In this document: positions 2,171 to 4,042 of the stretch, in pieces
Position numbering within the stretch: position 1 is the stretch's first letter
Layout: each line of letters starts with the position of its first letter
IMG/VR virus record: IMGVR_UViG_3300025698_001396
Span: 1-23,649 of that record
Source: a virus
Strand: one strand, 5' to 3'
Length of the DNA: 23,649 bases
Notes under the pieces: model-generated
The model's database searches: none
Told to the model about the DNA's origin: nothing
What the model saw: only the letters and a program-made list of their open reading frames with translations
Translations under genes and position numbers: made by a program

Positions 2171-3844
2171 ATGAAATATTTATCATTATTCTCGGGCATT
2201 GGAGGGTTCGAGTTAGGAATACAACAAGCGTATGAACAAAAATTACGAAATAATAATGGTGCATTATCGGGGAGAGATAAGAAGACACCATCAGACAGTC
2301 CCAACACTATCACAGGCAATGGGAATGGGTGGAGGAACAATTCCACTTGCATTGGTTACTCAGAAATCGACAAATATTCAATCCAAACCTATCAAAAACA
2401 TTTTAACCACAAAAATTATGGAGACATTACAAAAATCAACGAAAAAGAATTACCAGACTTTGATCTCTTGGTTGGAGGGTTCCCATGTCAATCTTTTTCA
2501 ATCGCTGGAAAACGCGGTGGATTTAACGACACAAGAGGTACGCTCTTCTTTGAAATCGCTCGGATTGTTAAACAAAAACAGCCACGCCTTTTACTTCTTG
2601 AAAATGTCAAAGGGCTTTTATCTCACGACAAAGGACAAACATTCTATACCATCATCTCCACGCTTGATGAACTGGGGTATGACTGTCAATGGCAAGTGCT
2701 TAACAGCAAAAATTTCGGCGTCCCACAAAATAGGGAACGAGTGTTCATTGTCGGACATCTTAGAGGAACACCCAGACCAGAAGTATTTCCTATCGGAGGA
2801 GGCACAAAAAAAGATATTGTCCAGCTTAATCACCCAACACACTCAAACAATAGGCTCTATGGAATAGAGGGGATAAGCCCTACTTTAAACACCGCACAAG
2901 GTGGTAATAGGCAACCAAAAATAGTTAAAGTAAGCGGTGATTTAGATAAAAGAAAAACTTATCTTGGTGATATAGCTTCAACTCTAGCAGCCAACCCAAC
3001 AAGTGATAATACAGCCAGACTATTTGAAAATAATAAAATAAGAAGACTAACCCCAAAAGAATGTGAAAGACTACAAGGATTTCCGGAAGTAGAAAAGTGT
3101 GATATACTAGAAGTATGCAAAGAGAATCAAAAGAAAAATGTAAATGCGGAAAACCAAAATCACAAGTTGCAAAAACTTGTTGGGAGTGTAGAAAGAAAAG
3201 ACTCACAAGAAAATGCAAAATATGTGGTAAAGTTTTTGAATACAAAAAATCAACAAATAAACAAACCTGTTCAACCGAATGTGCTTATAAGTTGCGTGGA
3301 AAACGGAGTAGAAATACACAGTCAAGGAAAATTACTCTTAAATGCCAAGAATGCGGAAAAGAAAAATTGGTGTCACCAGTATATAAAGATAGAAGATTTT
3401 GTTCAAATGCTTGTTGGCATAAATTTAATACTGGAAAAAATAACAGTAAATGGAGAGGTGGAATCACCTCAGAACGAGCAATGTTTGGCACTTCAAAAGA
3501 ATGGAAAGAAGTTAGAAAAAAAGTTTGGAAACGAGATAATGCAACCTGTAGGAGATGTGGAGAAAGATTTAATCATACTCAAAGAACTTTTGAAGTCCAT
3601 CACATTGTACCATTTAGGCATAGGAAATTTAGAACAAAAGTTAGCAACCTTATCCTCGTTTGTAATACGTGCCATAATTGGATACATTCCAATAGAAATA
3701 AAAAATCAAAATACCTTTACGATAATCATAAAAAGTAAAGTTGGTTGGACTTATGGATGTTCTGATTCTCAGAGGTATCGTCAATGTGGAAATGCAGTTA
3801 CAGTAAATGTAATTCAAGCTATAATGGAAAGGTTGTTATATTAA
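2171..3844 (+). CDS. DNA (cytosine-5) methyltransferase, interrupted in frame by an HNH gene
   Basis: This enzyme transfers a methyl group from S-adenosylmethionine to C5 of cytosine in DNA; in phages it protects against restriction or matches host methylation. Visible motifs are I FSGIGGFELG (about residues 6-15), IV GFPCQSFS with the catalytic Cys (about 103-110), VI ENVKGLL (about 143), VIII VPQNRERVFIVG (about 186), IX RRLTPKECERLQGFP (about 290-305) and X QRYRQCGNAVTVNV (about 534). Normal relatives read QGFP(D/E)GWT without a break. Here 218 codons separate QGFPE from GWTYG, and this stretch carries an HNH gene in another frame. The MTase frame nevertheless stays open to its own C-terminus. 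Without the insert the enzyme would be about 339 aa, normal for the family. G+C is locally higher than in the neighbours, suggesting recent acquisition. Whether the 557-aa product is active is unknown. Confidence 0.9.
   Translation: MKYLSLFSGIGGFELGIQQAYEQKLRNNNGALSGRDKKTPSDSPNTITGNGNGWRNNSTCIGYSEIDKYSIQTYQKHFNHKNYGDITKINEKELPDFDLLVGGFPCQSFSIAGKRGGFNDTRGTLFFEIARIVKQKQPRLLLLENVKGLLSHDKGQTFYTIISTLDELGYDCQWQVLNSKNFGVPQNRERVFIVGHLRGTPRPEVFPIGGGTKKDIVQLNHPTHSNNRLYGIEGISPTLNTAQGGNRQPKIVKVSGDLDKRKTYLGDIASTLAANPTSDNTARLFENNKIRRLTPKECERLQGFPEVEKCDILEVCKENQKKNVNAENQNHKLQKLVGSVERKDSQENAKYVVKFLNTKNQQINKPVQPNVLISCVENGVEIHSQGKLLLNAKNAEKKNWCHQYIKIEDFVQMLVGINLILEKITVNGEVESPQNEQCLALQKNGKKLEKKFGNEIMQPVGDVEKDLIILKELLKSITLYHLGIGNLEQKLATLSSFVIRAIIGYIPIEIKNQNTFTIIIKSKVGWTYGCSDSQRYRQCGNAVTVNVIQAIMERLLY
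3100..3108 (+). promoter_or_regulatory. Possible extended -10 promoter for the HNH gene
   Basis: TGATATACT is a TGn extended -10 followed by the hexamer TATACT, the same hexamer used by the regulator promoter near 10871. A -35 placed 17 bp upstream would be TTTCCG (3080-3085), a poor match, but extended -10 promoters tolerate that. The predicted start, about 7 bases downstream, falls on or beside the A of the HNH ATG at 3115, so the message would be leaderless or nearly so. Confidence 0.35.
3115..3738 (+). CDS. HNH homing endonuclease with zinc-finger pairs (207 aa)
   Basis: This is probably a site-specific DNA-cleaving enzyme that spreads its own gene by cutting uninterrupted alleles. Three cysteine modules come first: CKCGKP...CWEC (about residues 9-25), CKICGK...CSTEC (about 34-56) and CQECGK...CSNAC (about 76-100). 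Next is a NUMOD3-like KNNSKWRGG, then an HNH fold with CRRCGERF, EVHHIVPF as the first His pair, and NLILVCNTCHNWIH with the Asn and last His plus zinc cysteines. All key HNH residues are present, so it looks active. Its frame differs from the surrounding methyltransferase frame and it ends just before the host gene resumes. It has no Shine-Dalgarno; a possible own promoter lies directly upstream. Vsr-like or restriction partners of the methylase would not be expected to be nested this way. Confidence 0.88.
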   Translation: MQRESKEKCKCGKPKSQVAKTCWECRKKRLTRKCKICGKVFEYKKSTNKQTCSTECAYKLRGKRSRNTQSRKITLKCQECGKEKLVSPVYKDRRFCSNACWHKFNTGKNNSKWRGGITSERAMFGTSKEWKEVRKKVWKRDNATCRRCGERFNHTQRTFEVHHIVPFRHRKFRTKVSNLILVCNTCHNWIHSNRNKKSKYLYDNHKK

Positions 3845-3857
3845 TATAACACCCAAT

Positions 3858-3928
3858 ATCGAGATCGTCTAATGGCAGGACACAGGGTTTTGGATCCTGT
3901 TATCTAGGTTCGAATCCTAGTCTCGGTG
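3858..3928 (+). tRNA. tRNA-Gln (TTG)
   Basis: A full cloverleaf can be drawn. The acceptor is ATCGAGA with TCTCGGT (7 pairs including one G-U). The D arm is GTC...GAC with the AATGG loop. The anticodon stem CAGGG/TCCTG encloses loop TTTTGGA, giving anticodon TTG. The T arm is CTAGG/CCTAG with loop TTCGAAT, and the discriminator is G. CCA is not encoded. It is 14 bases after the methyltransferase stop and 4 bases before the next tRNA, so the pair probably shares one transcript. Confidence 0.92.
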
Positions 3929-3932
3929 CTAA

Positions 3933-4003
3933 GTAGGCATAGTGTAATGGTAGCACGGCAGGATGTGGCCCTGTCAGACATAGTTCGAATCTATGTGCTT
4001 ACT
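3933..4003 (+). tRNA. tRNA-His (GTG)
   Basis: The acceptor is GTAGGCA with TGCTTAC (7 pairs, one G-U). T8 is present, the D stem is GTGT/GCAC, and the anticodon stem GCAGG/CCTGT encloses loop ATGTGGC with anticodon GTG. The T arm is CATAG/CTATG with loop TTCGAAT. CCA is not encoded. Most bacterial tRNA-His genes encode an extra G at -1 opposite C73. Here the bases are A at -1 and T at 73, so the usual histidyl-tRNA synthetase identity pair is not encoded. Confidence 0.9.
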
Positions 4004-4042
4004 CAACCTCCAATCATACCACTAACAATTTACACCAACCTT

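Follow-up and report, generated by a model that had tools for sequence, protein, structure and literature searches.

Out-of-frame HNH insertions that leave the host reading frame open in viral C5 cytosine methyltransferases: a probable homing cassette

The window analyzed here is a 23.6-kb IMG/VR virus contig, taken at its full length of 23,649 nt. Positions 2171 to 3844 of its plus strand hold an open reading frame of 557 codons, insert included, that matches PF00145 (3e-79) and M.HhaI (1.1e-49), the best solved relative, and contains all the main methyltransferase motifs (SLFSGIGG, GFPCQ, LENV, QNRER, RRLTPxECERLQGFP, and GNAVTVNV). The Pfam match and the catalytic motifs place the product in the C5 cytosine DNA methyltransferase class, and with the insert in place it is presumably still active. 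The motif IX region RRLTPKECERLQGFPE (3041 to 3088, plus strand), which contains invariant columns of the family alignment, lies directly 5' of the insert (3089 to 3742, plus strand), and its highly conserved DNA presumably serves as the target for homing. The C-terminal part of the enzyme with motif X (GWTYGCSDSQRYRQCGNAVTVNV), delimited by Pfam, the M.HhaI match, and the alignment, follows at 3743 to 3844 on the same strand. Two phage tRNA genes, for Gln (TTG) and His (GTG), lie directly downstream of the methyltransferase at 3858 to 4004.

Relatives without the insert read QGFPDGWTEG or QGFPDNWTEG where the window methyltransferase has QGFPE, on the motif IX side, and GWTYG, ahead of motif X, separated by 654 nt. 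By the alignment, the insert amounts to exactly 218 codons lying between D/E and G, and each of them is open in the methyltransferase frame. The corresponding site in M.HhaI is just past its YPD and ahead of motif X. A few positions beyond it, uninterrupted enzymes differ naturally in length by 0 to 30 residues, so the insertion site is a length-tolerant loop. The initial annotation had described this interruption, with a complete HNH gene in a different frame, flanks of 26 and 4 bases, and no stop in the methyltransferase frame; the uninterrupted relatives, the open reading frames with their Pfam matches, and the 557 open codons bear this description out.

The HNH homing endonuclease gene (3115 to 3738, plus strand) encodes 207 amino acids and was assigned by PF01844 (4.3e-10), phrog_1271 (1.2e-24), and a family alignment. 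Its product contains several zinc-finger-like Cys pairs and a Pfam-defined catalytic domain at residues 145 to 192 (3547 to 3690, plus strand) with the conserved His, Asn, and Cys residues of HNH domains. The methyltransferase is read in the +1 frame with respect to the HNH gene. The only bases of the insert outside the HNH gene are the 4 nt after its stop and a leader of 26 nt before its start (3089 to 3114, plus strand), the length of which is fixed in 17 of the 18 copies described below. Within the leader, 6 nt before the HNH ATG, is an extended -10 promoter-like box, TGATATACT (3100 to 3108, plus strand), a putative promoter element. In 8 of 18 copies TGNTANNNT occurs at the identical offset, with its end 6 nt upstream of the start codon, against a background of 0.0007 per position, and TANNNT occupies that offset in 11 of 18; four copies (L007, L008, L114, and L116) have Shine-Dalgarno-like sequences in place of the box. 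The box was detected by comparing copies; a standard sigma-70 scan did not flag it, and no -35 hexamer is present. A promoter at this position would yield a leaderless HNH mRNA.

Through 3089 to 3742 the methyltransferase frame has 0 stops, compared with 29 in the other (+2) phase of the HNH gene. Synonymous shuffling of the window HNH gene, a simulation suggested in the initial annotation, gave 2.7 expected stops in the +1 frame and a probability of 0.017 for none; draws from the phage's own codon usage gave 6.5 expected stops, with none of 20,000 draws stop-free. An HNH gene rich in Lys and Arg codons naturally has few stops in its +1 frame, which makes openness in a single case less telling, and the earlier estimate of a chance stop every 12 to 15 codons proved too strict for this phase. 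The window alone is only moderately surprising, a single case that is no more than suggestive.

With the HNH protein and its alignment as queries, searches returned, after removal of near-duplicates, 17 further distinct insertions of the same HNH gene at the same C5 methyltransferase site, with HNH identities of about 45 to 77%. Sixteen are on viral contigs and one is on a Bacteroidetes MAG contig (L127). The same searches found no full-length relatives of the window HNH protein away from this site, and named phage and plasmid collections gave distant HNH matches only, with no cultured phage carrying the element. Frame-breaking stops in related insertions, which would have pointed to chance, were looked for and occur in 0 of 18 distinct inserts, over 203 to 216 HNH codons each. 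The methyltransferase C-terminal part is resumed in frame in 18 of 18, and motif X is retained in all copies; two of the 18, L005 and L108, have a further break upstream in the methyltransferase (a second HNH insertion and a frame change), in a few more fragment ends or distance bar the view to the start, and L101 ends with its contig. Synonymous shuffling predicts 1.1 to 4.4 stops per copy in the +1 frame, and the +2 frames hold 16 to 33. The joint chance of zero stops is about 1e-32 by synonymous shuffling, the conservative estimate, and about 1e-50 by locus codon usage, figures that multiply copies of shared ancestry whose HNH-silent sites are heavily diverged (dSN 1.3). With one copy per cluster it is still about 1e-17 (sum of per-copy values).

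The open frame and the sequence it encodes are conserved to different degrees. Using a four-class codon comparison, in which changes are sorted as silent or not in each frame, we found the HNH protein to be under purifying selection, with frequent HNH-silent changes (dSN 1.3). For the methyltransferase frame, dNN/dNS is 0.66, compared with 0.72 to 0.75 in the sham +1 frame of uninterrupted methyltransferases. Because this value is hardly below the controls, most of the read-through peptide lacks conservation of its own: purifying selection on its body is not visible, and its openness is what is kept. The two edges behave otherwise. In both AlphaFold models, 10-residue beta strands are predicted exactly at the two ends of the insert, at methyltransferase-frame residues 307 to 316 (3089 to 3118, plus strand) and 515 to 524 (3713 to 3742, plus strand). 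The first edge has alternating hydrophobic positions 6, 8, and 10, a pattern conserved in 17 copies, and at the last edge positions -9, -7, and -5 are hydrophobic in 81, 94, and 100% of copies. The models have a pLDDT of about 80 to 90 over motif X and about 30 over the loop body, with the TRD also poorly modelled. We infer from these predictions that the loop may project from the enzyme on a small beta-hairpin stem that closes it.

Uninterrupted as well as interrupted alleles, both of which the initial annotation had proposed to seek, surround the window gene. Its nearest methyltransferase relative, L026 (83%), is uninterrupted, as are the nearest methyltransferase neighbors of several other interrupted copies. 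In L026 (501 to 1564) the methyltransferase frame is broken upstream by a frameshift, either true or a sequencing error. On a methyltransferase tree, a quick one with several long branches that is only indicative, interrupted copies are scattered and the insert needs at least seven changes, two of them forced by well-supported branches. In 105 of 106 pairs the HNH proteins are more alike than the methyltransferases; the two identities are correlated (r = 0.75), so part of the spread is vertical. The scattered distribution and the higher HNH identity fit homing, of which they are no proof.

These observations are consistent with a model, to which we assign a probability of about 0.8, in which a homing cassette is translated through as a tolerated loop and its HNH protein is made from its own start. 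The cassette would be little more than the HNH gene, inserted at the conserved junction between motifs IX and X. No splicing would take place; ribosomes translating the methyltransferase would run on through the insert in the +1 frame, and the product would be a methyltransferase, probably active, with a loop of roughly 218 amino acids of nearly free sequence, carried at its base on two short beta strands at a place of tolerated natural length variation. The HNH protein would be made separately from its own start codon, served by the extended -10 box in most copies and by a Shine-Dalgarno sequence in others, and would presumably cut uninterrupted alleles, upon which the cassette would be copied in. 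The same DNA thus appears to encode two proteins, in such a way that a selfish gene can apparently spread without breaking its host gene.

A second HNH family, HNH2, unrelated to that of the window, interrupts related C5 methyltransferases after their motif VIII (L041:3050-3860, L086:2920-3720, L091:350-1125, and L130:913-2247). Here the methyltransferase N-terminal frame is open in the opposite (-1/+2) phase, with 0 stops against 9.5 to 14 expected in the three copies tested, and the C-terminal part has an ATG of its own, from which it restarts in a third frame. The resulting split enzyme is reminiscent of M.AquI. On one contig (L005/L086), a single gene contains insertions of both HNH families. 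The HNH2 loci bear on the explanation that best survives beside the loop model, namely, that the frame is open to keep ribosomes moving, by preventing polarity or by coupling to HNH or downstream translation, and not for a working long enzyme. An N-terminal frame held open through HNH2, even though the C-terminal part restarts elsewhere, is what such a need would leave behind. In the window family, however, the C-terminal part is in frame in every copy, motif X is kept, and the strand patterns at the edges are conserved. We regard this explanation as unlikely for the window family and, owing to HNH2, worth keeping in view.

Removal of the insert as an intron, or its skipping by ribosomal bypassing, would give a methyltransferase without the loop. 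Phage genes that tolerate interruption by a homing endonuclease are known from the bypass of T4 gene 60 with mobE and from the split nrdA of Aeh1, and precise insertion in a conserved site is a property of introns and bypass cassettes alike. The initial annotation had judged the flanks too short for an intron, and an intron was rejected here: Rfam gave no intron match, and no group I or group II catalytic RNA core, at the gathering threshold or even at an E value of 5, and RNA folding is weak (z only -1.67). Beyond the HNH gene there are only 26 and 4 bases. Of the two outcomes initially offered, a tolerated 218-residue loop and bypassing as in T4 gene 60, the first is favored and the second disfavored, since bypassing, like intron removal, does not explain why every copy has 218 open codons and a restored frame. 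A bypass cassette of the T4 gene 60 type combines matched take-off and landing codons with a stop and a hairpin; in none of the 18 copies does a stop follow the presumed take-off site. Intron removal and bypassing are together an improbable account. The T4 gene 60 insert is hopped over and Aeh1 nrdA yields two polypeptides, whereas in the window one frame runs through.

The openness might also be a by-product of the composition of the HNH protein, rich in Lys, Arg, and Cys and poor in Leu, Val, and Ile, with no selection on the methyltransferase frame. The +1 frame is indeed intrinsically stop-poor next to the +2 frame, and one free-standing HNH gene is open as well. This is the gene at L021:2243-2968, a zinc-finger HNH gene behind a capsid gene, with 0 stops against 4.7 expected; it was considered as a further dual-coding case and rejected, there being no host gene frame around it. 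It is the exception among 14 control HNH-type genes outside methyltransferases, which contain 139 +1 stops in 3,097 codons overall and of which 13 match their own expectation. Against a compositional origin stand these controls, the joint probability across 18 divergent copies, and the copy in L111, whose HNH frame is interrupted by TAA at codons 7 and 91 and which lacks the -10 box. Its methyltransferase frame is open throughout, and with two in-frame TAA codons the dead HNH gene cannot be what holds it open, a natural experiment whose weight would depend on the age of the nonsense mutations. Selection for openness of the host methyltransferase frame, proposed in the initial annotation, is strongly supported by the 18 distinct copies, the matched controls, and the open frame of the HNH-dead copy, and a purely compositional explanation is very improbable.

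Protein splicing of the 218-residue segment is the least probable explanation and was rejected: inteins also keep a frame open through an insert, and Hint-type inteins occur elsewhere in related methyltransferases, but the methyltransferase-frame inserts have no Hint or other Pfam domain, their ends lack Cys/Ser and His-Asn, in keeping with the absence of splicing residues noted in the initial annotation, the flanking residue is Gly, and the body sequence is not conserved. The intein-like Hint sequences interrupt C5 methyltransferases at their PCQ catalytic motif in L111 (1 to 1000) and L096 (2480 to 3800), and L111 bears both such a sequence and the decayed HNH insert.

Dual-coding insertion has a published precedent in the ShiLan domain of mycobacteriophage ShiLan gp65, an out-of-frame HNH insertion (PMC11855218, PMC9957025), such that the arrangement is less unusual than was first supposed, although the dual-coding insertion itself is supported. 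As in the window, the ShiLan insert is a stop-free segment in a phage DNA methylase, nearly filled by an HNH gene in another frame, and even the phase is the same, HNH codon position 1 falling on methylase position 3. The ShiLan HNH gene starts 18 nt into the insert and stops within its last 4 nt, a layout like that of the window, and both systems lack intron or intein signals, are scattered in distribution, and have a predicted looped-out structure. Its authors likewise propose leaderless initiation (PMC11855218). In contrast to the C5 enzyme of the window, gp65 is an amino-methyltransferase (DPPYG) interrupted at a different site, and direct comparison of the two systems found no significant HNH or methyltransferase similarity. 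By this comparison, the window element is an independent family of the ShiLan kind in C5 enzymes and not a ShiLan homologue. The ShiLan domain is known from ten actinobacteriophages with GC-rich genomes, in which open frames are less telling, compared with 18 mostly AT-rich copies here; the window family is new and widespread, and the evidence for selection is far stronger. A further insertion, in Pacc40 gp60, similarly places a putative endonuclease in an alternate frame of a phage methylase, but of a different methylase family and with an HNH assignment that is uncertain by the authors' own account (PMC11855218).

Inteins and group I introns that carry homing endonucleases resemble the window insert in being mobile, harmless to the host gene, and precisely placed where that gene is most conserved. 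Unlike them, it has no self-splicing RNA or protein domain, and the host enzyme presumably retains its function by tolerating the translated insert. It is generally assumed that a mobile gene within another gene is tolerated only with the help of an intron, an intein, or a bypass signal; the window family suggests a further route, in which the host frame is kept readable, and its 18 copies give a statistical proof of selection that a single published example could not. They also form a large natural set for the study of overlapping genes, with conservation of sequence in the HNH frame and, in the other, of openness only. With at least three unrelated HNH families represented (that of the window, ShiLan, and HNH2), it seems reasonably likely that dual-coding homing cassettes without splicing have arisen repeatedly and make up a general class of mobile element, in which a mobile gene would be overwritten onto a tolerated protein loop and the host methyltransferase frame left open.

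Another overlap lies upstream in the window gene, where a 211-amino-acid open reading frame (2232 to 2867) containing LSDILEEHPDQKYFLSEE overlaps the methyltransferase in another frame. It resembles overlapping open reading frames in the C5 methyltransferases of Streptococcus thermophilus phages, which, as in the window, have two open frames in one gene and, unlike the window, have no insertion and no HNH gene (PMC5601072); these phage genes, being uninterrupted, were rejected as a cultured example of the element. In the HNH2 insertions, the methyltransferase N-terminal frame runs into the alternate frame of this type of open reading frame.
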